A stretch of DNA of 64,000 nucleotides from Bacillota bacterium (GTDB lineage Bacteria > Bacillota > Sulfobacillia > JAJYWN01). The stretch's first letter is position 1. Each line of letters begins with the position of its first letter. Under the pieces are notes generated by a model that had not been told where the DNA came from, made no database searches, and was given only the letters and a program-made list of their open reading frames with translations. The stretch lies in contig JAJYWN010000015.1 of assembly GCA_021791495.1 (NCBI GenBank), forward strand, positions 1-64,000. Reading direction: 5' to 3'. Below are positions 8,959 to 31,793 of the stretch, one piece after another. The position numbers and the translations under genes are program-made.

Positions 8959-9578
8959 TTCCACCTCCCCTCCTCCCTGCCGCGCAGGCCACTCCGGCCG
9001 ACATCGTCCGAGAGCTTCCTGGCCAAGTAGATTCTGGCCCAATGGAGCCTGCTCTTGACCGTCCCGAGAGGCACTTCTGTTAGTTCCGCCACTTCCTCCA
9101 ACGGTAGCCCGTTCACCATCGCCAACACCACGACTTCCCGGTGCTGTGGACTCAGTTCACGAAGGGCTTGCTCTATATCGACTTTCCGGTCGATTTGGCC
9201 CGCCTCGTCGTCACAACCAATGAAGACACCCGCCGCCGGGAATCCAGTTTCAAGGGCACCACCGGCCAGTTCCACCTGGGCAACCCGATGGCGCGAGACG
9301 ATCTTGGCAATGGTGTGCCGGCAGATCCCATACAGCCATGTCGAGACCTTGGAGCGACCGGCGAAACTCCTGGCGCCCCGCCAGACAGCCGCCAGCGTCT
9401 CTTGAACCGCGTCTTCGGCCAGACTGCGGTCGCCAAGACGTGACAAGGCGAATCGGAACAACGGGTCAACATAGCGTTCAAAAAGGTTCCGGAACGCCAC
9501 GACGTCACCGGCGGCCGTGGCCTCCAGGAGTGGAAGGTCCGGATCTTGATCTGAACTTCGGGGCTCTAGCACTCTCAT
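8955..9578 (-). CDS. ECF-type RNA polymerase sigma factor
   Basis: A 207-residue sigma-70 family protein of the extracytoplasmic-function class. Region 2 runs about residues 25-95 (FRNLFERYVDPLFRFAL, then DAVQETLAAVWRG and STWLYGICRHT). Region 4 covers about 135-190 (LSPQHREVVVLAMVNGLPLE and GTVKSRLHWAR). It recognises its own promoter class and is probably inhibited by the zinc-finger anti-sigma gene that overlaps its stop. The ATG has AAGGGA 7 bases upstream. Its target promoters are not identified. Confidence 0.93.
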   Translation of the reverse strand: MRVLEPRSSDQDPDLPLLEATAAGDVVAFRNLFERYVDPLFRFALSRLGDRSLAEDAVQETLAAVWRGARSFAGRSKVSTWLYGICRHTIAKIVSRHRVAQVELAGGALETGFPAAGVFIGCDDEAGQIDRKVDIEQALRELSPQHREVVVLAMVNGLPLEEVAELTEVPLGTVKSRLHWARIYLARKLSDDVGRSGLRGREEGRWK

Positions 9579-9684: not shown

Positions 9685-10047
9685 TTACCTAGACCAACCG
9701 GTCAGGCCGAGGTTCATAGCCGCTAGGCCCAGAAACTCGGTAGGCGCTTCTACAGCGCACGACAGGAATTCGTCGTCTGCCGCGTGCGCGCATAGTCTGG
9801 CCGTTCTGGTAGGATTGACCCGACGGGCTCGGTGAAAGAGTCGGAGCAGTATCGTGCAGAGAGGGAGAACTTGCTCTGGGAGCAACGTACTAAAGATTCG
9901 GCGAAAGACGTGGATCAGCTCTTCACGCATGAAATCGGAGACTGCAAAGGTGTAGTACCCGTTGTCTTCCTTCGTCAAGACAAGCTTGCATGCGTCATCA
10001 CCTTGTAGAGCATCGACAATGACATTGGTGTCAACGACGACCTCCAT
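9685..10047 (-). CDS. PIN-domain toxin, probably C-terminally shortened
   Basis: A 120-residue PIN ribonuclease-fold protein: VVVDTNVIVDAL (first acidic residue), SDFMREELIHVF (second) and CAHAADDEFLSCAVEA (third acidic cluster). Typical proteins of this group continue with a TGD-type strand carrying the last acidic residue and reach about 135-140 residues. Here the tail is LGLAAMNLGLTGWSR, so the end may be lost or diverged. The start overlaps the upstream small gene by 17 bases, as in many toxin-antitoxin pairs. Nuclease activity is uncertain given the missing element. Confidence 0.75.
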   Translation of the reverse strand: MEVVVDTNVIVDALQGDDACKLVLTKEDNGYYTFAVSDFMREELIHVFRRIFSTLLPEQVLPLCTILLRLFHRARRVNPTRTARLCAHAADDEFLSCAVEAPTEFLGLAAMNLGLTGWSR

Positions 10048-13587: not shown

Positions 13588-13709
13588 AGGAGCACCCCCG
13601 CTCCCTTTTCGGCGGTGAGCGAGGTACAACCTTCCGACCGTGAGCACAACGCCCTTCGAGAGTAGGCCTGGGCGGCCGGATGGCTAGGCAACTCGCCCGT
13701 GCGCTTCCC

Positions 13710-13741
13710 AGGTGGAAGGAATTGGTGACTGCTCGGCGAAC
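13710..13741 (+). repeat. Dispersed repeat, copy 1
   Basis: Carries the core GGAAGGAATTGG, 8 variable bases, then CGGCGAAC, shared with copies at 15267, 19114 and 23520, all on the plus strand. It is followed at once by a gene fragment (13745-13797) rather than a DUF433 gene, unlike the other three copies. Confidence 0.75.
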
Positions 13742-13744
13742 AGA

Positions 13745-13797
13745 TCGACGGCAGCGGCAGGTTGATAGACCTGGGATTCCCCCAGTATTGGAGCACG
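13745..13797 (+). pseudogene. Fragment of a paralogue of the gene at 16045-16680
   Basis: About 50 bases encode DGSGRLIDLGFPQYWS, matching DGSGKSIDLGFPQYWE in the intact gene at 16045-16680, with near-identical nucleotides around CGACGGCAG and CAGTATTGG. The rest of the gene is absent. Directly after it comes the leader of the truncated membrane-protein gene, so the segment looks like a recombination scar. Confidence 0.7.
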
Positions 13798-13834
13798 GTG
13801 AGTGGACAATCTGAGCCGATGAGGAGCTGGAGTG

Positions 13835-14152
13835 ATGAAAAGGCTAGTCAAGTGGGTGGCCTTTTCCGTAGTGGCGGTTGCGACCCTGATGTTTGTTCAG
13901 ACGGAGTTGATGAGGCTGCTCACCACGATTCGCGGGGACTCGGGAAGTGACATTCGGTCGTGGCTGGTACTGGGCCATATCGGGGGGACGATTGCCGCTT
14001 TCGCCATTACAGGCGCTCTGCTGGGCCTGGAAGGCTACCTTGGGGAACGAATAGCCAAGAGGTCGATACCTTGGGTGGCGGGATTGACATTTCCAAGTCA
14101 CTGTCGCCCAACGACAAGTTGGTCGGCAGATAGCGGGACTAGGCTGCAATGA
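13835..14152 (+). pseudogene. Truncated membrane protein, paralogue of 17546-18001
   Basis: The first 70 or so residues (MKRLVKWVAFSVVAVATLMF ... SWLVLGHIGGTIAAFAITG) match the intact 151-residue protein at 17546-18001 almost line for line. Homology stops after LEGYLGERIA, near base 14050, and an unrelated tail follows. Two of the expected four membrane helices are therefore lost. The 35-base leader (AGTGGACAATCTGA ... GATGAGGAG) is also shared by the two copies, so the duplication included the promoter-proximal region. The frame ends by overlapping the start of the CPBP gene by 4 bases (ATGA). Confidence 0.75.
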
Positions 14153-14931
14153 GAGTATCTGCAGTACTAGTGGCCACCACGGTGGTGTACGCAGCTGGGC
14201 TTGTGCTCTCGCCTCAGTACCCATGGATGATATCGTATGCAGCCATCCTGGCGATTGCCGTGTGGTTAGCGGTTCGACACCCTGCAAGCTTGGCAAACGG
14301 CATCCGCCTGTGGGCCATCTGCTTTGGGCTCCTTGCGGCCGTCGGAGTACTTGCTTCGCGGCCACAAGCTCCAATCGAAAGTTCCCTCATCGGGCTCCTA
14401 ACAGTTAACTGCGTACTATCAGGCGTCGTTCCGTGGTCACGGGTGGGGCCAGTTGTGAGCCTTCACCGCAAAGATGGAGGAAAGGCACAGATCGCAGTGG
14501 ATTGGCTCATCGGAGTGGCATTGGGAGTTCCTTGGGCGATGCTGAACATCATCACGGCAACGGAGAAGCTCCACTACGCCAACGCTTTCGCGAGTCCCGT
14601 CCGATCAGCCCTGGCAGCACTTGGACCTTCGGTCTCTGAGGAAGCGGTCTTCAGGTTCTTCCTGACTAACGTCATAGCCGGAGTGCTCGCCGGGGCATAT
14701 GGCAAGCGGGAGACCCTTGTCCTGGCAGTCGGCATAGCCGCCACGTTCCATGGATTCCTTCACGTCGGGCCGCTTCTTGGACACAGTGCGGCGGAGTCCC
14801 TCATGAACGGGGCCAGGTTGACCCTCCTTTTTGGTGTCCCCCTGGGAGTCGTCGCCGCCCGCATGGGCCTAGTCTCTGCCATCGCGTTCCATTGGGTCAT
14901 CGACTTCGTCAGGTTTGCCCTCGGCCTCTGA
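14149..14931 (+). CDS. CPBP family intramembrane protease (small form)
   Basis: A 260-residue polytopic membrane protein with about seven hydrophobic segments. The CPBP/ABI signature is present: SEEAVFRFF (Glu-Glu-x3-Arg), FHGFLH and HWVIDF (last His motif). Family members process prenylated proteins or peptides, or confer self-immunity to bacteriocins; no bacteriocin gene is visible beside it. Its start overlaps the end of the truncated membrane-protein frame, which may now serve as its translated leader. Base composition is a little less GC-rich than the flanking core genes, consistent with accessory DNA. Confidence 0.83.
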
Positions 14932-14942
14932 CCTTCTCCTCC

Positions 14943-15076
14943 GAGAAGAAGACTACCCCATCGAAGATGACGAAGGCGCCGCCGCCGTACTCATGCACCC
15001 GCGTGCGGACGTTGAAGGGGGGGTGGGGTCAGGTCCTCCACCTGCCCTGCGGCGGTCAGACGGCAGAGGACGACCC
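14943..15076 (-). pseudogene. Fragment of an S9 (prolyl oligopeptidase-type) peptidase gene
   Basis: The reverse strand encodes [11 protein letters not shown] and [11 protein letters not shown], nearly the same as the N-terminal part of the S9 peptidase at 21394-23388; the nucleotides match over about 130 bases. One G run is longer by a base, shifting the frame, and both ends of the gene are missing. It is a short duplicated relic that immediately follows the CPBP gene. Confidence 0.8.
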
Positions 15077-15100
15077 AGGCCTCTGCCGTTCTGCCATTCG

Positions 15101-15202
15101 CGGCCTCCCGCACTCTGGCGCGTTCGACCGTCAGCTCCGGCCGCGTCGCCTGACAGAGGAGCCCGGTGCTGGTCTTGTCTTGCTCGCATACTTTTCAAGG
15201 TC
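15101..15202 (-). pseudogene. Relic of the korB 3' end
   Basis: These 102 bases align, with many substitutions, to the last part of the korB gene (compare 30885-30990 and the pseudogene at 27113-27797), including CGGCCTCCC at one end and CATACTT followed by TCAAGGTC at the other. No open frame survives. It sits just before a dispersed repeat and a DUF433 gene. Confidence 0.55.
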
Positions 15203-15266
15203 GAAGATGCCCTCCCCTGCCACCTGGCCGCAGGCTGTCAACGTCTGCCCGGCAGGTAGCCTGGTT

Positions 15267-15300
15267 GGTGGAAGGAATTGGGGGTGGGCCGGCGAACCGT
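15267..15300 (+). repeat. Dispersed repeat, copy 2
   Basis: Contains GGAAGGAATTGG, 8 bases, CGGCGAACCGTC. The first DUF433 gene begins about 100 bases downstream, matching the spacing logic of copies 3 and 4. Confidence 0.75.
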
Positions 15301-15402
15301 CTCGGCAGCCAGGTTACCAGGCTGAGGAAAACGGCAACGAAGGGAAGCATAGGTATGAGTGTCGCCATCAGACCCTTGTCTCGGAAGGGGAGAAACCCTG
15401 CC

Positions 15403-15657
15403 TTGCCCGCCCCGATCAGGAAATACGGCCGGGTGGTAATCGACCCGGAAATTCAAGCCGGCACCCCGGTGATTGAGGGGACCCGCCTGACGGTAAGCGC
15501 CATATTGGGATGCTTCGAGGCGGGGTACTCGATCGTTATCAGGCGGTACCCGTACCTGACTCGCAAGGATGTGGTTAGCGCTCTCCGTTTTGCGGCGGTA
15601 CTTGCTGACCAGAGTAATCCGCAAGTGCCAAAGGATTGGGATTTTGAGGTGGAGTAA
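15403..15657 (+). CDS. DUF433 antitoxin, copy 1
   Basis: An 84-residue DUF433 (MazE/VapB-like helix-turn-helix) protein: IRKYGRVVIDPEIQAGTPVI, TRLTVSAILGCFEAGYS and YPYLTRKDVVSALRFAAVLA. The TTG start with GGAAGGGGAG upstream is preferred because copy 3 has the same arrangement and no upstream ATG; ATG 15355 is an alternative. Relative to the other copies it lacks two aspartates in the YSIDDVI segment, a 6-base in-frame deletion. DUF433 proteins neutralise DUF5615 PIN-like toxins, and one follows with a 14-base overlap. Confidence 0.82.
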   Translation: MPAPIRKYGRVVIDPEIQAGTPVIEGTRLTVSAILGCFEAGYSIVIRRYPYLTRKDVVSALRFAAVLADQSNPQVPKDWDFEVE

Positions 15658-15988
15658 CAAAGCCGTCAAACCCTCGGGCATCTTCCTGGACGATGACATC
15701 TATAGCGAGCATCTCGCCAACTTCATTCGGACAACCGTTGTGCCACTTGTCCTTACCAAGGAGTCGAAGGAAGTCGGCCCATTCACGAAAGACCAGGGGA
15801 TCAAGGATGTTGCCGTCCAGCGTGACCTCTTGATTCTCACCCGAAACAAGCTCCACTTCCGCGGCATCGCGAAGTCGTGCGGCGAGCACCCCCTACCCCG
15901 CTTGTTCGGCATGAACTGGGAGCAACCTTCCGGGCGAACCTTCCGCGGGCACCGGTCGTCAGTCATATGCATAGGGTCTGAGCCTTAG
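15644..15988 (+). CDS. DUF5615 PIN-like toxin, copy 1, altered C-terminus
   Basis: A 114-residue frame with the DUF5615 pattern: FLDDDIYSEHLANFIRTTV (acidic N-terminal site), PFTKDQGIKDVAVQRDLLIL and TRNKLHFRG. No ATG or GTG precedes the domain; a TTG inside the end of the DUF433 gene is the best start. After AKSCGE the sequence departs from copy 3, which continues with VAVIAETNAELIDRLVKEV, so the C-terminal helix is replaced by unrelated residues. It is the best preserved of the three toxin copies at its N-terminus, but activity is doubtful. Confidence 0.6.
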   Translation: MRWSNKAVKPSGIFLDDDIYSEHLANFIRTTVVPLVLTKESKEVGPFTKDQGIKDVAVQRDLLILTRNKLHFRGIAKSCGEHPLPRLFGMNWEQPSGRTFRGHRSSVICIGSEP

Positions 15989-16044
15989 CTTAGTTTGGGT
16001 TGGGTTGGATCAAGTCGGGTTCGGTGGAGTTGGGGGGCGTGCCA

Positions 16045-16680
16045 GTGAGAAGATGGTCAGTTTCCGCAGTGGCACTGGTCTGGGTGCCGGTAGTCCTGCT
16101 GGTCGCGGCGTTGGCCTTCGGGGCCTACGGCCGCCTCGGCGTAGGCTCGAAGGCATCCACGGACCCCGCCAAGGTCCAATGGGCGGTAGACGCGCGCGCC
16201 AAGGAGGCTATCGCCGCCATCAGGGACAAGGATCTGGATAGGCTGGCCGCGCTAGTCCACCCCAAGCAGGGCCTCCGGTTCTCTCCCTACTCGTTCGTCC
16301 GGACCGGGCCTGATGGAGACCAGGTATTCAACGCCACAGCGCTGACGAAAGCGTGGACCTCATCGAGGTCGTTCCACTGGGGTGAGTACGACGGCAGTGG
16401 AAAATCCATCGACCTTGGCTTCCCTCAGTACTGGGAGCGGTTCGTCTACGACAGGGATTTCGCCGGCGCTCCGGAAGTGGGATATGACAAGGTCATCGGG
16501 CGCGGCAACACCTTGATCAACATCGCCGAGGCCTATCCCGGAGCCGCTTTCGTGGAATATCACTTCCCCGGGTCCCAGCAGTACGGCGGGATGGACTGGA
16601 AGAGTCTGCGGCTCGTCTTCGCCCTGTACGAGGGCAAGTGGTACCTGGTCGGGATCATCCACGACGAGTGGACGATCTAG
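16045..16680 (+). CDS. Membrane-anchored protein of unknown function
   Basis: A 211-residue protein with one N-terminal membrane anchor (VALVWVPVVLLVAALAFGAY) and an extracellular domain. Features include LAALVHPKQGLRFSPYSFV, DLGFPQYW, and an ending with MDWKSLRLVF and YLVGIIHDEWTI. I recognise this ending from uncharacterised exported proteins of Bacillota but know no function. GTG 16045 follows GGGGGGC; GTG 16039 and TTG 16000 are alternatives. The 3' end overlaps the converging PIN gene by 26 bases. A fragment of a paralogue lies at 13745. Confidence 0.7.
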   Translation: MRRWSVSAVALVWVPVVLLVAALAFGAYGRLGVGSKASTDPAKVQWAVDARAKEAIAAIRDKDLDRLAALVHPKQGLRFSPYSFVRTGPDGDQVFNATALTKAWTSSRSFHWGEYDGSGKSIDLGFPQYWERFVYDRDFAGAPEVGYDKVIGRGNTLINIAEAYPGAAFVEYHFPGSQQYGGMDWKSLRLVFALYEGKWYLVGIIHDEWTI

Positions 16681-17080
16681 AGATCATCCGGAACCCGGCG
16701 GTGGCGAAGTGCCCGTCGAAGGTGAAGGCCTCATCGAGAGAGAGTGCCTTCATGACCGCAAAGCTGACCCCATCGGTGTAGCTGAACCGGTGGTCACGAT
16801 ATTGGCGGAGGATTGCCAGAGCGACGTCCTCCAATTCCCCGTCAGCCCGGGCCACCTCGATCCTAGGGCTGGACTTGACCCGGTCCAGGAAAGTGATAGC
16901 GTTCGACCAACCCAGTGCGTATCGGATCAGTGTGTAAGTCTCCGCCAAAACGAGATTAGTGGTAATCAGCCGCCCGTCTTTCAGAAGGAGCGGGTAAATG
17001 CCACGCGCTCTTTGGTGCCATTCGTCGGAGGTATCGGCCAAAGCGTACCAGGCGCTGCTATCTACAAAAACGCTCCTCAC
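16655..17080 (-). CDS. PIN-domain ribonuclease toxin (VapC-like)
   Basis: A 141-residue PIN protein with all four acidic positions in place: FVDSSAWYAL, TNLVLAETYTL, FSYTDGVSFAVM and AFTFDGHFATAGF. This is the SSAW subgroup that cleaves RNA when freed from its antitoxin. The start overlaps the stop of the ribbon-helix-helix gene in an ATGA junction, the classic toxin-antitoxin layout. Nothing suggests decay, unlike the neighbouring DUF5615 copies. Confidence 0.88.
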   Translation of the reverse strand: MRSVFVDSSAWYALADTSDEWHQRARGIYPLLLKDGRLITTNLVLAETYTLIRYALGWSNAITFLDRVKSSPRIEVARADGELEDVALAILRQYRDHRFSYTDGVSFAVMKALSLDEAFTFDGHFATAGFRMISRSSTRRG

Positions 17081-17385
17081 GGTCGCCTCCCCTTTCGGCC
17101 GTCTGGAGCCGGAGAAGTCTCAACTTCGTCTCCGGTCGACGACGGTCGCCGGAGAGCGCTTATCAGGTACCGGTCGTGATTCCGCGCCAAGTCCCGTCGA
17201 CCTGAGGAACCCATGCCGACGATTCCCATGGCCGGGTCCTCGGACACTGGGATATCGGCCAGATACCTGGCTATGCTTTCACGCACGATGTCCGCCATCG
17301 ACGCGTCTTTCGCCCGAGCCGCATTCTTGATGGCCTGCATCTGCTCGGCATCCAGGTATACCTGCAACGGATACTTCTTCGGCAT
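17077..17385 (-). CDS. Ribbon-helix-helix antitoxin
   Basis: A 102-residue protein with an N-terminal ribbon-helix-helix domain: the strand YPLQVYLDAEQ, then two helices around QMQAIKNAARAKD and MADIVRESIARYLAD. A linker follows, then HDRYL and an acidic tail, the region that usually docks into the toxin. It should neutralise the PIN toxin encoded immediately downstream and repress the operon as a dimer. The ATG start is clear. The promoter probably lies in the AT-rich stretch 17386-17450. Confidence 0.85.
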   Translation of the reverse strand: MPKKYPLQVYLDAEQMQAIKNAARAKDASMADIVRESIARYLADIPVSEDPAMGIVGMGSSGRRDLARNHDRYLISALRRPSSTGDEVETSPAPDGRKGRRP

Positions 17386-17545
17386 GAGACTCCCACCCTC
17401 TCTTTCATGCCCTCTATTTCATTATCTCATGAACCCACTTTCATGTAGAGCTGTCTAGCGTGGAATGCCACTTCCCCAGCTCCCCAAAATATGATGGAAT
17501 GGATTGGGACGAGTGGACAATCTGAACCGATGAGGAGTTTGAGGT

Positions 17546-18001
17546 ATGAAAAGGCTGGTCAGGTGGGTGGCCTTTTCCGTCTCTGCGGTAGTGGTGCTCA
17601 TGACAGTGCAGATGGAATTGACGAGGCTCCTTGCGGCCATCCGTAGAGACACCGGTAGCGACATACGGTCTTGGCTGGTTCTGGGCCATATCGGGGGCAC
17701 AATCGCCGCGTTCGCCGTGACGGGCGTATTACTGGGCCTGGAAGGTTATCTGCGAGAACGCGCCCGTAGCGGCCGGTGGCAGGTCGATTGGCCGAGGGCG
17801 CTCGCACTCGGACTCCCCATGGCTCTGATTGCTCTCAGCAACATCTGGATCTTCCTCATTCCAGCATCGTTCGACCAGGCTTTCAGCCTCTGGTGGAGCC
17901 GCCTGCCCATGGGGCTGGTCAACGGTCCCTTGTCCTACCTGGCCGGAACAATCGCCGGATACGCCATCATCTCGAGTTTCCGCAAGCCGTCCACCGATTA
18001 G
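17546..18001 (+). CDS. Four-helix membrane protein of unknown function
   Basis: A 151-residue membrane protein with hydrophobic segments near residues 5-22, 43-65, 84-105 and 120-142. Conserved-looking polar stretches are MELTRLLAAIRRDTGSDIRS and the loop after GLEGYL. I do not know the family. It is the intact paralogue of the truncated gene at 13835-14152, including the same leader (GAGTGGACAATCTGA, then GATGAGGAG). The surroundings are toxin-antitoxin genes and gene relics. Confidence 0.7.
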   Translation: MKRLVRWVAFSVSAVVVLMTVQMELTRLLAAIRRDTGSDIRSWLVLGHIGGTIAAFAVTGVLLGLEGYLRERARSGRWQVDWPRALALGLPMALIALSNIWIFLIPASFDQAFSLWWSRLPMGLVNGPLSYLAGTIAGYAIISSFRKPSTD

Positions 18002-18250
18002 CCCGGCAGCCCAAATGGCGAGTGAGAAGAAATGGCGGCCGCCCTGAGCGAGGGCTGGGAGTCGGACATTCACGCCTCAGTGGTCAGTTGGAATCGCTAC
18101 GAAGGCCAAGCCGGTCACCGAGAATGGCGGCGGGTCGCAACCGCTTCCAGAAGGGTTCGAAACACCCTTCTACACCTCGATCATCCTTGGCCGGTCTGAG
18201 GTCAGGTTTCTCGGAGGATAAGAGCCATACCCCAGCCGCCCGACCTGACC

Positions 18251-19107
18251 GTGAAGAGCAGGGCCGGCAAGGTCCGGTTCTACACCGTTCCCAAAGGTCG
18301 GCTCGCCCCGTGCGTCCCAGACCTGCTTACAGACGAAATCTGTTTGGAGGCGGATTCACGGATCCTAGCGGAGATAGAGGACTCGAAGCCGGTCAGTCCA
18401 TCGACTGAGCCGCAGGCCTTTTGGATAGGGGGCATTATGGACCGGACGCTCGTGGTGTTGGGCGCGCCCGCTGGCCCGACCGGGCGGGCCCTGCTCTTCA
18501 GTGAGATCTCGTTGGGTTCGGTCTACGACCTCAGGCTGGTCACTGTGCGGGACAAAACGCCTGCCAAACCCTTGTTCACTCTCCTTGGCGTTCCCGCTAA
18601 CGGCTTAACGCTTATGCTTCCGCCCGCCCGCGCGACGGTCAACGTCTATCTCGATGACGGCAGTTGCCTCACCCCTCACCAGGCTGAGCTTCCAGCTCTT
18701 CTTCCCAAATCGGGCCACCGGCAAGCTCCAACTGGAGATACGCACTGTAGTCTACCAGGGCGAGATTTCGACCCCGATATTGGCGATGGGCGAGCTCCTA
18801 GAAAGCCCCAAGCACCGGTCCCTTTCCCTGACTGTCCCGGCCGGCACCCGGGTGAATGGGTTGACCGGCTCGCGCGATCGACTCTTGGTCGCCGATCTTT
18901 CCAATGAACGAGAAGATGGCTTCCGGGGAGGGGCCTCGGAGGAGGCGTTCACCGTCGCGGCCATCGTCAATACCTTGCTGTCGAGCAACTTCGGGCTTTA
19001 CAACAAGGTGCAGCTTCTGATTGACGGCCACAAGGTGGACACCTTAGGGCGGCGGGGTCGGCATCTCACAGCCGCTACGGGTCAACGAGAAGCCGGTCGG
19101 CAAATGA
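18251..19107 (+). pseudogene. Frameshifted GerMN-domain protein gene
   Basis: Three successive frames together make one GerMN (sporulation/germination) protein. The first gives ATVNVYLDDGSCLT. The second, from about 18690, gives TGKLQLEIRTVVYQGEI, MGELLESPKHRS and AIVNTLLSSNFGLYNKVQLL. The third, from about 19046, gives GISQPLRVNEKPVGK and a stop at 19107. At least two indels (near 18690 and 19046) break it, and no start or signal peptide was found, so the 5' end may also be lost. Codon-like sequence begins earlier, around 18095. A related intact domain lies in the lipoprotein at 24307-26424. Confidence 0.75.
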
Positions 19108-19113
19108 TTCGGC

Positions 19114-19150
19114 AGGTGGAAGGAATTGGTGGCGACCCGGCGAACCGTCT
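19114..19150 (+). repeat. Dispersed repeat, copy 3
   Basis: Contains GGAAGGAATTGG, 8 bases, CGGCGAACCGTC, starting 7 bases after the GerMN pseudogene stop. The second DUF433 gene starts about 50 bases downstream. Confidence 0.75.
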
Positions 19151-19197
19151 CGACAGCCTGGTTGCAGCCCGTGTTTCGGAAGGGGATAAGCCCCGTG

Positions 19198-19455
19198 ATG
19201 CCGGTCCCGGTCAGGAAGTACGGCCGGGTGGTAATCGACCCGGAGCTTCAAGCTGGCACCCCGGTGATTGCGGGAATCCACCTGACAGTGAGCGCCATGG
19301 GCTGCTTCGAGGCAGGGTACTCCGTCGATGACGTTATCAAGCGGTATCCATACCTTACCCGTGAAGACGTAGTTAGTGCTCTCCATTTGGCGGCGGTGCT
19401 CGTCGACCAGAGTAATCCGCAAATCCCAGGGGATCGTGGTTTTGCGGTGGGGTAG
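19198..19455 (+). CDS. DUF433 antitoxin, copy 2
   Basis: An 85-residue DUF433 protein: VRKYGRVVIDPELQAGTPVI, LTVSAMGCFEAGYSVDDVI and YPYLTREDVVSALHLAAVLV. The ATG at 19198 has a GGAAGGGG site about 13 bases upstream. One residue is missing in the helix SAMGCFEAG compared with SAILGCFEAG in copies 1 and 3. Its toxin partner downstream is frameshifted, so this antitoxin is now effectively an orphan. Confidence 0.8.
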   Translation: MPVPVRKYGRVVIDPELQAGTPVIAGIHLTVSAMGCFEAGYSVDDVIKRYPYLTREDVVSALHLAAVLVDQSNPQIPGDRGFAVG

Positions 19456-19690
19456 CAGAACCGCCAGGCTGACGGGCATCTTCCTGGGCGATGACATCTG
19501 CAGCGAGAACCTCGCAGCTCATCCGGACAACCGTCGTATATTGGTCGTACCGAGGGATCGAAGGAAGTCGGCCCATCCACGAAAGATCGGGGCGTAGGTG
19601 ATCCTGTCGCCCAATGTGACCTCTTGATTCTCACCCGAGGCAGGCTTCGTTTGCGGGGCACCGTGAAGGTATGCGGCGGCGTGATCGTTG
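19442..19690 (+). pseudogene. DUF5615 toxin, copy 2, frameshifted
   Basis: The start region encodes TGIFLGDDICSENLA, then the frame is lost and ends at KSAHPRKIGA. Downstream nucleotides still align with copies 1 and 3 (for example GACCTCTTGATTCTCACCCG), showing that the gene once continued to about 19690. Several indels inactivate it. Aspartate in the first acidic motif is also changed (FLGDD for FLDDD). Confidence 0.75.
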
Positions 19691-19716
19691 AGTGGTTCGG
19701 GAGGAGGTGAACTGCC

Positions 19717-19977
19717 ATGCCCGTGAAGGTGAGGAGGTACGGACGAGTGGTGATAGACCCGGAGATCCAGGCAGGTATCCCAGTCATTGAGGGGACACGG
19801 TTGACAGTGTGTGCGGTCCTTGCCCACCTGGCAGAAGGCTTGACCGTTGAGAGTGTCATTAACGACTTCCCGTACTTGGACCGCGCAGATGTGATCGACG
19901 CCATCCGTTTCGGGGCTGTGCTTTCCGACCAGAGAAACCCGCGAGTGCTGGGAATCTGGGATTTCGAAAGTGAGTAG
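19717..19977 (+). CDS. DUF433 antitoxin, copy 4 (divergent)
   Basis: An 86-residue DUF433 protein that differs most from the other copies: VRRYGRVVIDPEIQAGIPVI, LTVCAVLAHLAEGLTVESVI and FPYLDRADVIDAIRFGAVLS. GGGAGGAGG precedes the ATG, the best ribosome binding site of the series. No DUF5615 gene follows. A TnpB gene begins 36 bases downstream and may have displaced the toxin. A 3' fragment of yet another DUF433 gene lies beyond TnpB. Confidence 0.83.
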   Translation: MPVKVRRYGRVVIDPEIQAGIPVIEGTRLTVCAVLAHLAEGLTVESVINDFPYLDRADVIDAIRFGAVLSDQRNPRVLGIWDFESE

Positions 19978-20013
19978 TAGAACGTCCGTACAGGCCTTAG
20001 AGGAGTCGCAGTC

Positions 20014-21270
20014 ATGCTGATGGCACACCGGATTGCGCTCGATCCGAACAACAAGCAGGGGACCCACTTCGCGAGGGCCGCCGGCGTCGCGCGCTTTGCC
20101 TACAACTGGGGGCTCACCGAGTGGCAACGCCAGTATGAGGCGTGGAGGACCGACAATAGCTTGCCGAAACCATCGGAAGCGTCACTGCGGCGGCAACTGA
20201 ACGCCATCAAGCGTGAGCGGTTTCCGTGGATGCTGGAAGTGACCAAGAATGCTCCACAGATGGCCATCATGCAGCTTGGACAGGCCTTCCAGAACTTCTT
20301 TGCCGGCCGTGCCCGCTATCCCGTGTTTCGCAAGAAGGGGCACGACGACCGTTTTAGCATCACCAACGACCGGTTCCGCGTCGAAGGCCGCCGCATTCGC
20401 ATCCCCAACCTTGGCTGGGTACGGATGCGGGAGCGGTTGCGTTTCACTGGGAAGATCATGTCGGCCACAGTCTCCCGCGTGGCCGGCCGCTGGTTCGTTA
20501 GCATCACCGTGGACACCGCTGATCCGCCCAAGCGCCCCGCCGAAAACCAAGGCGTGGTGGGAGTGGATTTGGGCGTGTCTGCGTTGGCAACGCTCTCGAC
20601 TGGAGAAGTCGTCCCTGGACCCAAGCCACATGGGGCCCTACTTCTACGTCTGCGCCGCCTTTCGCGGAGCCTATCGCGGAAAAAGAGAGGTTCCGGCAAT
20701 CGGCGTAAGGCACGTCAGAAGTTGGCGAAACTGCACGCGCGTATCACGGACATCCGCGCCGACGCCCTGCACAAGCTCACGGCGGACCTGACGCGCCGAT
20801 TCCACACCATCGGCATTGAGGACCTGAACGTGCGTGGCATGCTCCGAAACCGTCACCTAGCCCGTTCCATCGCCGATATGGGCTTCTTTGAGTTCCGGCG
20901 GCAACTGAAATACAAGGCGAAACGGCGTGGCCGAACCGTAGTGGTGGCGGACCCTTGGTTCGCGTCGAGCAAGATGTGCTCGGTGTGCGGCAGTATCCGG
21001 CAAAAAGTGCCGCTGTCGGAGCGACAATGGACATGCCCCGTCTGTGGCGCACACCACAAGCGGGACCTGAATGCGGCCCGAAACCTGGCCGCCTACGCCG
21101 TGAGTTCCACGGTGTCTGCCTGTGAAGGGGAAGGCGCTGGCGCCGGTTGTGGCCGGCGTGAAACCGGCCCCAATGAAGCAGGAAGCCAGCACCAAGACTA
21201 CCTTAACGTAGGTTTGGGTGGGTCTGGCGGAACGGCGGTACTTGCTGACCAGTATAATCCACAAGTGTAA
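20014..21270 (+). CDS. tnpB: TnpB RNA-guided nuclease-like protein
   Basis: A 418-residue TnpB with an intact catalytic triad: Asp185 in GVDLGVSALATL, Glu269 in IGIEDLNVRGML and Asp351 in HHKRDLNAARNL. A zinc ribbon with Cys322, Cys325, Cys341 and Cys344 is also present. The N-terminal domain begins IALDPNNKQ and FAYNWGLTEW. TnpB is an RNA-guided DNA nuclease that favours retention of IS200/IS605 elements. The last dozen residues (TAVLADQYNPQV) are not TnpB but the end of a DUF433 gene read in frame, so the natural stop has been lost or replaced. The Met at codon 3 is an alternative start. Confidence 0.9.
   Translation: MLMAHRIALDPNNKQGTHFARAAGVARFAYNWGLTEWQRQYEAWRTDNSLPKPSEASLRRQLNAIKRERFPWMLEVTKNAPQMAIMQLGQAFQNFFAGRARYPVFRKKGHDDRFSITNDRFRVEGRRIRIPNLGWVRMRERLRFTGKIMSATVSRVAGRWFVSITVDTADPPKRPAENQGVVGVDLGVSALATLSTGEVVPGPKPHGALLLRLRRLSRSLSRKKRGSGNRRKARQKLAKLHARITDIRADALHKLTADLTRRFHTIGIEDLNVRGMLRNRHLARSIADMGFFEFRRQLKYKAKRRGRTVVVADPWFASSKMCSVCGSIRQKVPLSERQWTCPVCGAHHKRDLNAARNLAAYAVSSTVSACEGEGAGAGCGRRETGPNEAGSQHQDYLNVGLGGSGGTAVLADQYNPQV
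21232..21267 (+). pseudogene. 3' fragment of a fifth DUF433 gene
   Basis: About 36 bases at the end of the TnpB frame encode TAVLADQYNPQV and match the end of DUF433 copies 1 and 3 (AAVLADQSNPQV) at nearly all positions. The rest of that gene is missing. It marks where the TnpB segment joined an older DUF433 locus. Confidence 0.7.
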
Positions 21271-21338
21271 GGAGTCGCAGAGCGGCGGCGCGATCGATAT
21301 CTCCTAGCCGCTGCGAGCCAAGAGAAGCTCGTCGACAA

Positions 21339-21385
21339 GTATCCGCCAGGTGGAACGATTGGGGGTTCACGTACCTGGCGGATAC
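21339..21385. terminator. 13-bp perfect inverted repeat between converging genes
   Basis: GTATCCGCCAGGT at 21339-21351 and its exact complement at 21373-21385 enclose a 21-base loop. The repeat lies between the end of the TnpB segment (plus) and the end of the S9 peptidase (minus), so it could terminate both. The loop begins GGAACGATTGG, which resembles the dispersed repeat core. No U-tract follows on either strand. Confidence 0.45.
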
Positions 21386-21393
21386 GATCCAGC

Positions 21394-23388
21394 CTACATG
21401 TTCTCGATGGGCACCGGCTCAAGATCCTCCGCTGGCTGGAATCCAAACACCCGGGAGATGAAGTAGAACTCCGCCTCCAAGGCACGCTTGATGTTTTCGG
21501 CGCGGCGGAACCCATGGCCTTCCCCCGCGAAGGGCACATAGGCCACCGGAATACCCTTGGCCCGGAGCTTGGCCACCATGAGCTCGGCCTGGTTAGGAGG
21601 AACGACCTTGTCCTCCAACCCCTGGAAGAAGATGACCGGACAGGAGAAGCCGTCGGCATGGTACAGCGGTGACCGCTCGTGGTAGATGGCTATGTCCTCC
21701 GGGTACCGGCCGATGAGGCTGTCAAGGTACCTGGACTCGAACTTATGCGTCTCCTTGGCTAAGACCTCCAGGTCACTGACGCCGAAGTGGCTGGCGCCGG
21801 CCCGGAAGACATTCCGGAAGGCCAAGGCGGCAAGGGTGGTGTAACCACCGGCGCTGCCGCCCATGATCATGGTGCGGTTACCGTCGACCTCTCCCTTGGC
21901 TACCAGGTACCGCACGCCGGTAACGCAATCGTCCACGTCCACGACGCCCCATTTGCCGCGCAGGCGGCGCCGGTAGGAGCGGCCGTAGCCAATGCTCCCG
22001 CCATAGTTCACATCGAGGACCGCGAAACCCCGGCTGGTCCAGTACTGAATGCGCAGGTTGAGCGCGGCGGTGGTGGCGCCCACCGGACCACCGTGGCAGA
22101 CGACGCGCAGAGGTGGCAGTTCCCCCTTGGGGGCGACGAAATCCGGGTTCTGCGGACGGTAGTAGAAGGCATGGGCGGTGAGCCCGCCTTCCGTCGGGAA
22201 TTCAATGGCTTCGGGAACGGACAGGTAGGCCGGGGCCACAGCGACGTCCGTAGACCGGCGCAGGATTTCACTGCCCCCCTGTTCCGGGCGATAACGTACC
22301 ACACACGGGCCTTCCGTTGACGCCCCCCCGATGAAGACTACCCCGGCGGGACCGGCCCGCAGCCCGGCGATGACGGAGAAGGGTGTATCAAGGCGACGCA
22401 GACGGCCACCGTGTCCCTCCCCTTCCTCCGCCACGCCAAGGTTGGCCAGGCCATTCTGCACGTAAGCGCAATACAACTTGCTTCCGGCGGCCGCTTCCGG
22501 CGCACCTGGCGCGTCGAAGAAGTCGAAGGACGACGGCCGGAGACCCTTGGGGGCGCCGAACTCGGCCTCCATGGGCGCTACCGGCTGAATCTCGGAGCCT
22601 ACGAGGCGACAGATGTTCCACCAGCCGGTACGTTCCGACACGAAGTGGAGGATACCTTCAGGGGACCATTCCGGCTGGAAGACGGAATCTCCGGCTCCGC
22701 CGGCCGCGCGGCGGGTGTTGGTGAGAGTCCCGTCAGGTGCTAGATCGGCGAGCCAGAGTTCGGTGTCGTCCTAGGGCATGTTGGGGTGGTTCCAGGAGAT
22801 CCAGGCTAGCCTCGAGCCGTCCGGACTGACCCGGGGAGAGCAATAGAAATCATTTCCCTCGACCAGGACCTGACCCGCGACCAGCACCCGGCCGGCTTCA
22901 CTCGCCTCCAGGTCTAGCGCAACGATGGTATTGACCGCTTCCCGGCCCGGAACGGTATGGTCTTCCCGGACGCAGATAAGGCGGTTTCGGGGTCGGTCGA
23001 GGGTCGCGTCGGCGTAGCGCATGCCCGGGGTGGAGGTAATGGGCCGGGGTTGCGACCGCGGATCCTCGTTCAGGTCCAGCCGGTAGACCATCTGGTCGCT
23101 GAAGTTTGAGAAGAAGACGACCCCGTCGAACACGGAGAAAGCCCCGCCACCGTACTCATGGACGCGGGTGCGGACGTTGAAGGGGGGTGGGGTCAGGTCT
23201 TCCACCTGCCCTCCGGCGGTCATACGGCACAGGACAACCCGACCGCTTTCCCAAGGGCGGCCCTCGGTCCAATAGATGTCCTGGCCGTCAACAGCAACCT
23301 GCTCCAACTGCATCGTCCCGGCCACGACCATATCGGCGGTTATTGGTGAACGCCAAGCGCCATACGGTCTGACTTCCTTCAAAGCCAT
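21394..23388 (-). pseudogene. S9 (prolyl oligopeptidase/acyl-peptide hydrolase) gene with one in-frame stop
   Basis: One continuous frame of 664 codons encodes an S9C-type peptidase: an N-terminal beta-propeller, then an alpha/beta hydrolase with GGSAGGYTTLAAL (nucleophilic Ser), GLEDKVVPP (Asp) and GEGHGFRR (His). Codon 206 (22771-22773) is TAG in the context HPNMP-stop-DDTELW, where the family usually has tryptophan, so a single TGG-to-TAG change breaks it. Everything else is intact, which suggests a recent mutation, a sequencing error, or readthrough. A fragment of this gene is duplicated at 14943-15076. If functional, the enzyme would degrade oligopeptides in the cytosol. Confidence 0.88.
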
Positions 23389-23519
23389 CCTCTTCCGCCT
23401 CTCGGTATGTGAGCACGGGCATCCGCACCCGACGCCTGCCCATCAGGGTCTTTCCCCGTCCCTGTGTACCTTTCCAGGTCTATTTCACCCTCCCCTGCCT
23501 TCAGCTACTGGGTCCTGGT

Positions 23520-23553
23520 AGGTGGAAGGAATTGGGGTTGACTCGGCGAACCG
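23520..23553 (+). repeat. Dispersed repeat, copy 4
   Basis: Contains GGAAGGAATTGG, 8 bases, CGGCGAACCGTC, followed about 45 bases later by DUF433 copy 3. The 40 bases before it (ending CCCTCCCCTGCC) also resemble those before copy 2, so the repeated unit extends upstream. Confidence 0.75.
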
Positions 23554-23596
23554 TCCCGATGTCAGACCTACGTCCCGGAAGGGGAGAAACCCTACC

Positions 23597-23857
23597 TTGC
23601 CCGCCCCAATCAGAAAATATGGCCGGGTGGTGATTGACCCGGAGATTCAAGCCGGCACCCCGGTGATTGAGGGGACCCGCCTGACGGTAAGCGCCATATT
23701 GGGCTGCTTCGAGGCGGGATACTCCATTGATGATGTTATCGGACGATACCCATACCTTACCCGTAAGGACGTAATTAGTGCGCTCCGTTTTGCGGCGGTA
23801 CTTGCCGACCAGAGTAATCCGCAAGTGCCAAAGGATTGGGACTTTGGGGTGGAGTAA
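23597..23857 (+). CDS. DUF433 antitoxin, copy 3
   Basis: An 86-residue DUF433 protein and the most canonical of the set: IRKYGRVVIDPEIQAGTPVI, TRLTVSAILGCFEAGYSIDD and YPYLTRKDVISALRFAAVLA. It is about 90% identical to copy 1 by eye. The start is TTG behind GGAAGGGGAG; there is no ATG or GTG in the leader. The overlapping toxin gene has a 20-base deletion, so this antitoxin also lacks an intact partner. Confidence 0.83.
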   Translation: MPAPIRKYGRVVIDPEIQAGTPVIEGTRLTVSAILGCFEAGYSIDDVIGRYPYLTRKDVISALRFAAVLADQSNPQVPKDWDFGVE

Positions 23858-24234
23858 CCGAATCGTCAAACCGTCCGGGATCTTCCTTGACGATCGCCAA
23901 CTTCATCCGGGCAACCGTCGTGCCACTGGTCCTTACTAAGGAATCGAAGAAAGTTGCCCCCTTCACGAAGGACCAGGGGATCAAGGATATCGCCGCAGAA
24001 CTTGACCTACTGATTCTGACCCGCAACAAATCCCATTTCCGTGGAGCGGCGAAATCGTGCGGCGGCGTGGCCGTGATCGCCGAGACAAACGCCGAGTTGA
24101 TAGACCGCCTGGTTAAGGAAGTCCTTACCCTGGACCCATCCGTCCTGTACAAGGCCTACACGACCGCCAGCCGACGGGAGGTAACGGTGTTTCCGGGCGA
24201 CGGGGGACAGCCGTTGAGGCACCGCCGGCGCTAG
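23844..24234 (+). pseudogene. DUF5615 toxin, copy 3, with a 20-base deletion
   Basis: Compared with copy 1, the stretch between GACGAT and CGCCAACTTC lacks 20 bases near 23895. This removes part of the acidic N-terminal motif and shifts the frame. The remaining frame encodes ANFIRATVVPLVLTKES, LDLLILTRNKSHFRG and a full C-terminal helix (VAVIAETNAELIDRLVKEV) that copy 1 lacks. Joining the start of copy 1 to the end of this copy would give a complete toxin of about 140 residues. Confidence 0.78.
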
Positions 24235-24306
24235 CCTCAGCGTGGTGCGGTTCTGGGTTGCCATTAAGGACAAACGTCGTCTGTTTAGGCAGCAGAAAAG
24301 CCAAAC

Positions 24307-26424
24307 CTATTCTCCCGCAAGTGGATCCCACTGCAGAACGACGATGCCCTCCTTGAGATAGACCAACTCATAATACGTATCGTTGGCGACTATCTCTGTC
24401 CGTCCGATGTCCGAACCCGGGTAGACAAAGGAATCCCGGTACTTTTCCGGTAACACAAGTGCCACGCGGGCACGTTGCTCTAGGTTTCGACCGAAGACCG
24501 TCAGATATGTGGTCCATTTGTCAAGCTTGTCAGCAAGTGGACGCGTTCGGACGAAGACGTCCTGCGTTCTGTCTTTGAGCATGGTGATGACGATAGTAGC
24601 AGTTCCGCTCTCGAGAGGAGCCCGCTTCACGATGTTCCCTGCTCGGTTCACCAAGGCAATCTCCTGGCCGGCCGGGGCAATGGACTGCCGACCATGCTCG
24701 TTCGTAATCAGCTGCGGCTCTAGGCTGGTTTCATGCGGTGAGGCGACCATCGGCACCGTGGAGGAAACCAGTCCGCCACTTTCGTCAAGAACAGCCCATC
24801 GGGCGACCTCACCCTTATCCTCCTCAGGTGGTACATCTCGTCGGATGGCCAATCTACCAGGAATGGTGCTGCTAAGGTGCAGCCACCCCTTAAAACCGGG
24901 AAGGCTCTTTTCAAGGTCAATGTCATTCCACTGGCCGTTACGGAATATGGCCAGGCCCATGGATTGGCCAATGTCATAGTGGGTTAGGTAAAGTGACTTT
25001 CCCACAACCTCGAGTTGGTCAGGGTGCAAGGCATACTCGCTTGGGAGCGCGATGACGCTTACAAGTTTGTTGTCTTGTCCATACACCTTGATTTCACAGT
25101 TCACGCGGTCCACGACATACACCAGCCCACCGGCCACGGCGATGGTGGAGGGACCCTTCCAACCATCAGCTTGGACGGTGCGATAAGAGACCGCCTCGGG
25201 GGTTGTTCCCCATGGAATCCTGAGGACTTCCCGGGGTGCAATGGGAGGTAGGACCAAAGGAGTATTCCGGGAGATGGGTTCCCTGATCCGCACATGCCCG
25301 GCCAGGGTCTCCACCTTCTGGCCGTCAATCAGGATCTGGACCCTTGATATGAAGTCCATTCCGATCAGGGTATTGGCGATGGCGTCCAGGGTCAGCTGTT
25401 CGTTCAAGGCGTCTTGCCAGTGATTGGTCTTGAACTCCGAAGACATATCCAGGACCGCCGTTAACCCTGGAGGATTGTCAACTTCCTTCAAGGACAGGAT
25501 TCTTGAGCCGCTGGGGAATGCCGGGCTGTAGTGCGGATCGTCAGGCGGCAGGCCACGCATGAGTTCCCTCAACGCGGCTTCGGGCAGACCCTCCCGCTGA
25601 CTGGCAAAGATGAAACGGGTCTGCGGAATAAGCTGGCCTTTCTTGCGGTCAGGGAAGTAGATGACGGCGCGCCCGTTATAGATTGTGACCTTGATCTCAC
25701 GCCCGTCTAGGGTTACTTTTGCGGCGTTGGCGCCGGGAGGAACGGATATGACGGTGTATGGGTAGCTGGCAACCTGGCTGGCGCCGGACGAAGGTTTCAC
25801 GACCTCCGCCTGAACGCGGAGGAGGTTGTTTTCAATTCCTGCCGTTAGGATTCTGATCTTGTACCCATTGTTGGGCATTTCCCCGGTCCCAATGGCCAAA
25901 AAGCACTGAAAGGAAAATGTGTAGAAGACTGCGGAAGGTCCCTTCTTGTCAAGCAGCGGCAGTAAATCCTTCTGGATGCTCTCAGTGCCCGCAAAGGTAA
26001 AGCCGTCTGGCAGAGGCGGTTTGAGATAGTCGGAGACCGCCGACAGCGGGATGATCCAGTAGGAGAGTTTGCCCTCACGTTCGAAGGCCAAGAAGACGTC
26101 CTTCTTGTCCGCCGAGTACTTCCCCCACAGGGTGACGTTCCTTCTTTCAACCTGGATATAGGCTGCGAAGTCCCGCATCCGAGTGGGAAAAAGCTCCCGA
26201 TCCTTCCTCGTCGCTTTGCCAAGAGATCTCAATAGATCTCCCAGTTCATTTGTCTCAGTGGTATCCCCGGAAAGGAAAGAAACCCTCAACTGAGAGGCCT
26301 TCTCGATTCCCGCTGCCTTCACAAGATTTTGGGGTTGCCAGAACGCCCGGGATTTGCATCCCCCGAGAATTAGGCAGGCAGCTAGGATTAGGAGCGAAAC
26401 CGGCGTCCTTGCGAGTCGAGCCAA
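24307..26424 (-). CDS. Lipoprotein with a GerMN domain and a propeller-like C-terminal half
   Basis: A 705-residue lipoprotein. TTG 26424 is chosen because a perfect AAGGAGGT lies 7 bases upstream and the product then starts LARLARTPVSLLILAACLIL and runs into lipobox LGGC. Earlier ATGs would leave a long polar lead. After about 200 residues of unknown fold comes a GerMN-type region (VIYFPDRKKGQLIPQTRFIF, then TLDAIANTLIGMDFISRVQI and DGQKVETLAGHV). The last 300 residues carry propeller-like strands (STIAVAGGLVYVVDRV, YGQDNKLVSVIALP). GerMN domains occur in spore germination and cell-surface proteins. The combination is unusual and its role unknown. Confidence 0.8.
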   Translation of the reverse strand: MARLARTPVSLLILAACLILGGCKSRAFWQPQNLVKAAGIEKASQLRVSFLSGDTTETNELGDLLRSLGKATRKDRELFPTRMRDFAAYIQVERRNVTLWGKYSADKKDVFLAFEREGKLSYWIIPLSAVSDYLKPPLPDGFTFAGTESIQKDLLPLLDKKGPSAVFYTFSFQCFLAIGTGEMPNNGYKIRILTAGIENNLLRVQAEVVKPSSGASQVASYPYTVISVPPGANAAKVTLDGREIKVTIYNGRAVIYFPDRKKGQLIPQTRFIFASQREGLPEAALRELMRGLPPDDPHYSPAFPSGSRILSLKEVDNPPGLTAVLDMSSEFKTNHWQDALNEQLTLDAIANTLIGMDFISRVQILIDGQKVETLAGHVRIREPISRNTPLVLPPIAPREVLRIPWGTTPEAVSYRTVQADGWKGPSTIAVAGGLVYVVDRVNCEIKVYGQDNKLVSVIALPSEYALHPDQLEVVGKSLYLTHYDIGQSMGLAIFRNGQWNDIDLEKSLPGFKGWLHLSSTIPGRLAIRRDVPPEEDKGEVARWAVLDESGGLVSSTVPMVASPHETSLEPQLITNEHGRQSIAPAGQEIALVNRAGNIVKRAPLESGTATIVITMLKDRTQDVFVRTRPLADKLDKWTTYLTVFGRNLEQRARVALVLPEKYRDSFVYPGSDIGRTEIVANDTYYELVYLKEGIVVLQWDPLAGE

Positions 26425-26509
26425 CGGGGTTACCTCCTTCTTCCTTAGGTCAACCCAGGAAAGGAAAGGCATGATTATCCGCCGGTTCAAGGACAGGTCG
26501 GGTGAACCA

Positions 26510-26983
26510 CTACGCCTGAGTCTTCCGTCCATCCCGGCGATCCCCTAACACGATGCCGGTAGTTGCACCAACCCCGAGGACTCCCAGCCAAAACCGCCAA
26601 GACGTGGCCCAATAGGCCACCGTATACTGGTTAATCAGTCCCCATCTGTGGTTGGGACCGAAGGCCCGAAAATACGCGGTTGTTGTCTCAAAGTGCCGGA
26701 AGGATGTCCAAGATAGCCATAGCAGCACGGCGGAGGTGATCAAGCCCCCCGGAATTGCCAGGAGCCGCACTTGGAGGAGCATTGACCTCGAAAGCCTGGC
26801 GACCGATCGCACCTCTGCCCACATCAGGCCAACAGCACATACCACAGAACCGATCATACCCATGAATTGCATCGGATGAAAGCCATTGCCAGAGATTTGC
26901 CTAGGGTGAGGGCTGAACCGGTACACCAACAGGTTAGACAGGAGTAGGGCTACAGCCCACAGCGCAAGGCCCGCTAGCTTCAT
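26510..26983 (-). CDS. Small membrane protein of unknown function
   Basis: A 157-residue protein with four likely membrane helices, starting MKLAGLALWAVALLLSNLLV. A short basic tail (DRRDGRKTQA) suggests a cytosolic C-terminus. No family was recognised. ATG 26983 has GGGAGGTG 6 bases upstream; a GTG three codons earlier sits inside that site. It is directly upstream of the GerMN lipoprotein gene (85 bases between them), so the two probably form one transcription unit. Confidence 0.72.
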   Translation of the reverse strand: MKLAGLALWAVALLLSNLLVYRFSPHPRQISGNGFHPMQFMGMIGSVVCAVGLMWAEVRSVARLSRSMLLQVRLLAIPGGLITSAVLLWLSWTSFRHFETTTAYFRAFGPNHRWGLINQYTVAYWATSWRFWLGVLGVGATTGIVLGDRRDGRKTQA

Positions 26984-27112: not shown

Positions 27113-27797
27113 CTAAGCCCTTTCGGCCTTGGCGGCCTCCCTCACCTTAGCATATTCGGCGGTCAGTTCGGGGCGTATGGCCTTGTAGAGCAGGCCGATA
27201 GGGATTCGGTCAGTGCCTTCATACTTCTCAAGGTCGGCCCGGACCGATGCCCTCCCGCCGTCGGTCGCTTCGCTGCCCTCCCCCGCTGCCCCACCGGCCG
27301 GGCTCACCCGCACGCAGCGGTCGCGGTAGCCGCGCATCATGGCGGCGGCGGTGCCCTGCTTGTTCAAGCGGCCGAAGTGGTTGGGGCACTGGCACAAGGC
27401 GTCGACGACAGAGAACCCCGGATGGGTGATAGCGCCGGCAATCATGTCCGTCAGGTGCTGGGCGTGGTAGGTGGAGGACCGGGCCACGTAGGTGGCACCG
27501 GAGGCGATGGCCAGCTTGGCGGCGTCGAAGTCGCCCTCGATCATCCCGTAGGGGCTGGTGGTGGAAAGCGCGCCGACGGGGGTGGCCGGCGAGTACTGGT
27601 CATAGTCAGGTCGATATTCCGGTAAGCGGCATGGATGAAGTGGTTGCCGCCGATAGCCAATGCAATCGCCGTCGCCTGCGAGGACGATGACCTTGAGCTT
27701 TGGGTTCGCGAGTTTCATGCCGGTCGCCACCGGAAGTACCCGCCCGTGTAGGGTGTGGGTGGTGTCGAAGTTCACGTAGCGGCTGGGATACCCACTA
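27113..27797 (-). pseudogene. korB pseudogene (2-oxoacid:ferredoxin oxidoreductase beta)
   Basis: A partial second copy of the korB gene at 30869-31792. The matching part covers about the last 225 codons, from RYVNFDTTHTLHGRVLPVAT to the C-terminus. After GDGD the TPP-binding segment is garbled (CIGYRRQPLHPCRLPEYRP in place of SMAIGGNHFIHAARRN), and the following 40 or so bases are missing, so the site is destroyed. The 5' end, including the CxxC motif, is absent beyond 27797. It is not followed by other kor genes and sits in AT-richer accessory DNA. Confidence 0.88.
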
Positions 27798-28191
27798 CTT
27801 ACACCTGGTGTTTATGGACTCTTTGCTGGAATCGGCGGTGGCATTGAAACGGCAGATACGTGTAAGCGTCGCCTCGGTGACAACGCCCAACGCTTCTGTC
27901 TATCTGAACCGTAATAAGGAAGACTCCATACAGTCACGTTGTAGAATAGGATATATCTCGCATCAGGTCGACATCTTGGCCCATGGCGTTTGCATTGGAG
28001 TCTAGAAGTAATGTATAACCACAGCTAGTGAGCTGGTTATCTATCAAATAAGTGAATAGGGTCTACGGGGGCATTTCTGAGGTGCAGCCGCAGGATGTCA
28101 TATAGTATTGCTTTAACGCCAAGAGGTGTGCGGGATGCAAGAGCGAAATCCGTCGTCTAGACCCAATGCGCAGTAATTGGAGGTCTTGGGA
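27798..28191. other. AT-richer intergenic region upstream of the amidase gene
   Basis: About 390 bases, lower in GC than anything else nearby. A plus-strand frame reading MDSLLESAVALKRQIRVSVA (27811-28005) is open but lacks a convincing ribosome binding site and I do not recognise it. An imperfect hairpin spans 28015-28040 (ATAACC...AGCT with AGCTGGTTAT). It probably also holds the promoter of the amidase gene. Confidence 0.45.
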
Positions 28192-29343: not shown

Positions 29344-29399
29344 GTCATTGTCCTTGCGGCACGATCTTGCGGACCAGTACAGCAATGCCTGTTGTGCTT

Positions 29400-29424
29400 G
29401 GGGCGGCGGCTTAGCCGTCGCCCC
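29400..29424 (+). terminator. Strong hairpin after the amidase gene
   Basis: GGGGCGGCGGC and GCCGTCGCCCC form an 11-bp stem with one G-T pair and a TTA loop, about 57 bases after the amidase stop. No U-tract follows, so it may pause rather than terminate, or act within the leader of the lipoprotein gene starting at 29446. Confidence 0.5.
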
Positions 29425-29445
29425 GCAGACTACCGGGTGGTGACG

Positions 29446-31792: not shown

Positions 31793-31793
31793 A

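Follow-up and report, generated by a model that had tools for sequence, protein, structure and literature searches.

On the basis of self-alignment, domain searches and substitution patterns, we propose that the DNA between positions 13700 and 24300, here called the island, is a worn-down row of copies of one short block, a toxin-antitoxin pair with three neighbours. It would be an eroded tandem array, formed by repeated duplication of a ~4-kb unit, trimmed by internal deletions and later entered by insertions, a reading to which we give a probability of roughly 70%. The copies display local homology, direct orientation, conserved order and constrained substitution, and an element has inserted among them. 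The array has no evident joint function; the most fitting view is of a record of past events that includes one ordinary VapBC pair. The window, meaning the whole stretch of DNA analysed, comprises positions 1-64000 of one contig in a 4.2-Mb draft genome of 81 contigs with 4.2% estimated contamination. The comparison set comprised 154 genomes of the class, three of them in the same order; in it the source genome is the sole member of its genus and family. Features below lie on the plus strand unless marked (-).

Density of local paralogues

Nucleotide and translated self-alignment of the window recovered all listed paralogues and fragments. The island has 13 paralogous pairs in its 10-kb tile, against at most three in any of 37 sampled 10-kb control tiles. 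As a natural null for fragment matching, 386 kb of the 4.2-Mb genome was sampled, and none of 12 island fragments found a match there equal to its local parent, so that the self-alignment suggested as a check in the original prediction came out in favour of local origin. The weakest fragment, a leader at 21341-21375, scored 15 (raw) against its parent and 14 against the control. The island is real and unusually dense for its genome, and tandem duplication followed by deletion appears to explain it. An Rfam scan of 10-30 kb gave no match, and PADLOC returned TnpB/Cas12 cross-matches only.

DUF433 genes and their partners

The four DUF433 genes and one fragment that had been predicted are present: four frames (15367-15657, 19162-19455, 19717-19977 and 23561-23857) match PF04255 above the cut-off (E 1e-11 to 1e-19), and a 3' piece of a fifth gene, ~35 bp at 21233-21267, is 91% identical to 15593-15627 and is cut by a TnpB element. 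No DUF433 gene besides these four exists in the 4.2-Mb genome. Three of the four are headed by leader R, GGTGGAAGGAATTGG, which has exactly four occurrences in the genome, all within the island, and which carries a Shine-Dalgarno-like GGAAGGA and candidate start codons. Copy B (leader R1 and DUF433, 15260-15657; E 2.8e-15) is 82% identical over 523 bp to 23562-24064; copy C (leader R2, DUF433 and a degenerate DUF5615-like partner, 19111-19688; E 1.5e-11) is 77% identical to 15373-15884; copy D (leader R4, DUF433 and DUF5615-like partner) occupies 23514-24234 (E 3e-19). The remaining gene, third in order at 19717-19977 (E 1e-16), is more distant, with ~60% amino-acid identity to the others, and has its own ribosome-binding site. 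Leader R0 at 13709-13745 (33 bp, 88% to 19113-19145) is the start region of a DUF433 gene whose body has been deleted, and the degenerate, weak leader at 21341-21375 is ~80% identical over 23-26 bp, barely above the control.

A DUF5615-like partner follows three of the DUF433 copies. The three copies foreseen in the original prediction thus stand as related genes assigned by position and mutual homology, although Pfam gave one sub-threshold match only (PF18480, E 0.06). The copy B partner (15658-15988) has lost its C-terminus, its homology to 23858-24064 ending at 15884, and the copy D partner has a 20-bp deletion near its start, visible as a gap in the alignment with copy B. Truncation, frameshifts or the 20-bp deletion affect all three partners, so an intact adjacent PIN-superfamily (DUF5615) toxin is absent; in class relatives genuine DUF5615 genes lie directly 3' of DUF433. 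Between copies B and D dN/dS is 0.08 for DUF433 and 0.14 for the partners.

What might these genes do? COG2442/DUF433 was earlier predicted to be a PIN-associated antitoxin (PMC2701414), and VapB10 of Synechocystis, a member of the DUF433 family, is a tested antitoxin: it counteracts a PIN toxin as well as binding its own promoter (PMC3834315). Like such PIN-COG2442 modules (vapBC10), the island has DUF433 followed by a PIN-superfamily DUF5615-like gene; unlike them, its partner gene is damaged in 3/3 copies. DUF433 is intact in four copies whereas the partner is damaged in all three, and the DUF433 copies are possibly orphan antitoxins that are still active. A stronger version strikes us as rather doubtful: selection would have maintained them as antitoxins or regulators acting on their own, each linked DUF5615 toxin being lost, and the array would record repeated escape from addiction with the antidote retained.

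No close DUF433 relatives were found in the genome contig collection. DUF433 was absent from the phage records, and plasmid records held only distant relatives (<60%), so nothing points to a recent origin from phage or plasmid.

The other members of the unit

The complete gene16000 (16000-16680) encodes a predicted membrane-anchored or secreted domain protein with no assigned family. Its relatives occur at 34-55% identity in six other class genomes, and a seventh gives a 49-aa match at 65% at a contig end. One remnant, at 13746-13816, has an internal deletion and an EWTI-stop 3' end; 46 bp of it (13746-13791) are 76% identical to 16389-16434, and 17 aa match at 76% (E 4.6e-5). A second remnant (17448-17525; 72% over 67 bp to 16541-16605) is fused to the leader of the membrane-protein gene. 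Both remnants are best read as internal deletions. This leader, GACGAGTGGACAATCTGA, corresponds to the 3' end of gene16000, which argues that the two genes were neighbours in the ancestral unit.

A search of 154 genomes of the class turned up the membrane-protein gene, whose full copy lies at 17546-18001, in this genome alone. The truncated paralogue named in the original prediction is its copy at 13800-14049, 77% identical over 250 bp to 17511-17760 with a dN/dS of 0.11. The GerMN gene (18251-19105), likewise predicted, is a frameshifted pseudogene with two overlapping frames, the second of which matches PF10646 (E 9e-12). Two remnants of its C-terminal end lie at 14054-14131 (ending in VDTLGGGIDISKSLSPNDKLVGR-stop; 71% over 79 bp to 19027-19105, E 8e-6) and at 21284-21340 (77% over 56 bp to 19048-19103). 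An unduplicated gene at 14149-14931 encodes a CPBP/CAAX-protease-like membrane protein, so named from an EEAVFR-type motif only; it has no Pfam match.

Relics of S9 peptidase and korB

Pieces of an S9 peptidase gene, korB and gene16000 had been described as copies of fuller genes nearby, and self-alignment confirms all of them, with the qualification that the korB parents lie outside 13700-24300. The S9 5'-region relic (14943-15076, -) is 87% identical over 134 bp to 23108-23240 on the same strand, with a dN/dS of 0.09. Its parent (21397-23388, -; PF00326, E 2e-49) has one in-frame stop; the parts flanking the stop share one frame and are contiguous in relatives of ~650 aa. This TAG, at 22771-22773, where the relatives are uninterrupted, marks either a pseudogene or a sequencing error. 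The korB 3'-end relic (15086-15203, -) matches 27119-27236 at 68% and 30890-30991 at 70% (E 3e-9 to 7e-9). These parents belong to a truncated korB copy (27113-27799, -), itself 79% identical in DNA over 729 bp to 30887-31612 with a dN/dS of 0.19, and to the full korB at 30869-31837. The truncated copy shows an internal frame disturbance. Matches to korB, at 42-58%, come from many phyla and single out no lineage; GerMN genes suggest a spore-forming lineage of Bacillota. The S9 and korB relics stand in the same order and on the same strand as the S9 gene and the truncated korB farther right, a pattern that duplication of a larger segment and loss of its middle part would leave. The original inventory of pieces thus largely held, with three omissions, the gene16000 remnant at 17448-17525 and the GerMN remnants at 14054-14131 and 21284-21340, and with an S9 parent that carries a stop.

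Inserted elements

The PIN/RHH pair and the tnpB gene named earlier are both present with domain support. The pair forms one operon of VapBC type, with a PIN-domain toxin gene (16655-17080, -; PF01850, E 5e-12) and an RHH antitoxin gene (17077-17385, -; PF01402, E 1e-5) both above the Pfam cut-off. As in VapBC (RHH-PIN) systems, RHH lies upstream, the overlap is 4 bp and both genes are intact; the pair sits between two gene16000 copies and is otherwise ordinary.

The TnpB-only insertion element (~20000-21236; NF040570, E 1e-98) has copies of 87-88% DNA identity on three other contigs that fix its ends, and on its right it borders directly on internal DUF433 sequence, the 3' piece at 21237-21267. 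It resembles IS200/IS605- or IS607-type TnpB-only elements in its full TnpB domains and several common-ended genome copies, and lacks an adjoining transposase gene. The family numbers at least four copies in the genome, with well-defined common ends. An 11-bp sequence flanking tnpB, AGGAGTCGCAG, was considered as a target duplication and set aside, its left copy belonging to the element itself. The original prediction had set the island apart from simple phage or IS arrival; one part of it, the TnpB element, is a plain IS arrival.

Order, strand and selection

From left to right, the first block contains R, a gene16000 remnant, the membrane gene and a GerMN end (13709-14131). The unduplicated gene follows, and then the S9 and korB relics (14943-15203). 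The third block runs R-DUF433-DUF5615, gene16000, PIN/RHH, gene16000 remnant, membrane gene and GerMN (15260-19105), and the fourth R-DUF433-DUF5615, third DUF433, TnpB element, DUF433 end, GerMN end and weak R (19111-21375). At the right end stand the S9 gene and another R-DUF433-DUF5615 (23514-24234). The cyclic order [DUF433-DUF5615]-gene16000-membrane gene-GerMN holds for 9 of 14 steps, where shuffles average 3.6 (P ~0.0015), a result that is supportive and not decisive because the module labels were assigned after the data were seen. Paralogous pairs within the island are all direct, with copies on the strand of their parents; the only inverted pair is an old GerMN paralogy with 24307-26532, and inverted repeats in the island are only short and weak. 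In copy A adjoining pieces lie a few bp apart, like deletion junctions. Divergence is unequal, dS ranging from 0.44 to 1.18 among copies and differing between parts, which requires several rounds of duplication or gene conversion. Repeated short-range duplication, as originally suggested, is supported by copies that are all local, direct and diverged to different degrees.

Amino-acid changes in the relics are 2-5 times fewer than expected of sequences dead from birth (3.5 observed against 16.4 for S9, 18 against 65 for the membrane gene, 63 against 148 for korB), and that expectation is rejected with P 3e-4 to 8e-15. With dN/dS of 0.09, 0.11 and 0.19 for S9, membrane gene and korB, the larger relics bear signs of purifying selection and appear to have functioned as whole genes through most of the time since their duplication.

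How did the array arise?

In the history that we propose, a ~4-kb unit [DUF433 with leader R - DUF5615 - gene16000 - membrane gene - GerMN] would have been duplicated head to tail in several rounds, at least one duplication being larger and including S9 peptidase and korB, which lie alongside. These copies would have stayed functional for a long time and then been trimmed by deletions inside the array, leaving relics that keep their order and strand. Later the TnpB element inserted into the fifth DUF433 copy, and the PIN/RHH pair would have entered the space between two gene16000 copies. We infer the cause, unequal recombination or slippage acting on direct repeats, as well as how many events there were and in what sequence, and also selection that kept DUF433 once its partner was lost.

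Import would leave identical order, strand and low dN/dS: a diverged form of the locus, coming from a related lineage, would have recombined beside the resident one, and the resulting merodiploid would have been trimmed by deletion on both sides. Unequal dS between parts fits such an origin, and low dN/dS could equally stem from a diverged working copy of the locus. Weighing against the tandem reading, neither a two-copy intermediate nor an unduplicated ancestor has come to light. Against import, more than two copies of DUF433, gene16000 and GerMN call for some duplication in place even then, and the comparison set has no genus or family relative that could stand as donor; we regard import as unlikely, with a real chance nonetheless. 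The original prediction had favoured short pieces of local genes, copied and then inserted beside toxin-antitoxin modules. The pieces are indeed short and adjoin such genes, but they keep the order and orientation of whole blocks, adjoining pieces lie as close as deletion junctions would leave them, and the relics evolved as long-constrained genes, all of which makes this origin very improbable. Still harder to credit is a mobile element or site-specific system that built the array by recombining at leader R. Three DUF433 copies and one relic carry R, a well conserved repeat, at their head; its ribosome-binding motif and candidate starts explain that conservation, within the island no gene was recognisable as a recombinase, exact copies of R are missing from the rest of the genome, and the copies of gene16000, the membrane gene and GerMN do not each have R at their boundaries, so R is more likely a translation start region. 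An assembly or binning artefact, conceivable in a contaminated draft, is scarcely credible given copies that differ by 13-30%, far beyond sequencing error, and a kor operon on the same contig that is syntenic in same-order genomes.

Like bacterial tandem arrays shaped by duplication, deletion and pseudogene formation, the island has direct, adjacent, diverged copies with truncated members; unlike the usual arrays, it packs an unusually large number of small relics, all from a single multi-gene unit, into 10 kb, interleaved with toxin-antitoxin genes and an insertion element. The mechanism is ordinary and the example good, and no new system is revealed. Its value is that of a clear natural record in which a toxin-antitoxin locus multiplies together with its neighbours and then wears down. 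What look like scattered 'fragments' in a draft genome can turn out to be complete duplicated genes that eroded where they stood, and fragment dN/dS can separate eroded genes from inserted pieces.

Surroundings of the island

The synteny check that had been suggested found no conserved order of the stretch in distant relatives. DUF433, gene16000 and the membrane gene had no match in any of the three same-order genomes, two of which conserve the order of the kor operon beside the island (30.9-38 kb). Around the gene16000 relatives in class genomes, the retrieved stretches lacked every other member of the unit. The lipoprotein-like gene at 29392-30750 has a relative in a genome of a different order, where a DUF433 gene sits ~200 bp away from it. 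Not far left of the island are a PIN-domain gene (PIN_3) at 9685-10047 and, at 8473-9578, an ECF sigma factor gene with a zinc-finger anti-sigma-like gene. Elsewhere in the window, two minus-strand frames (47327-47911 and 62692-63300) share 35% identity with each other and are unrelated to the island.
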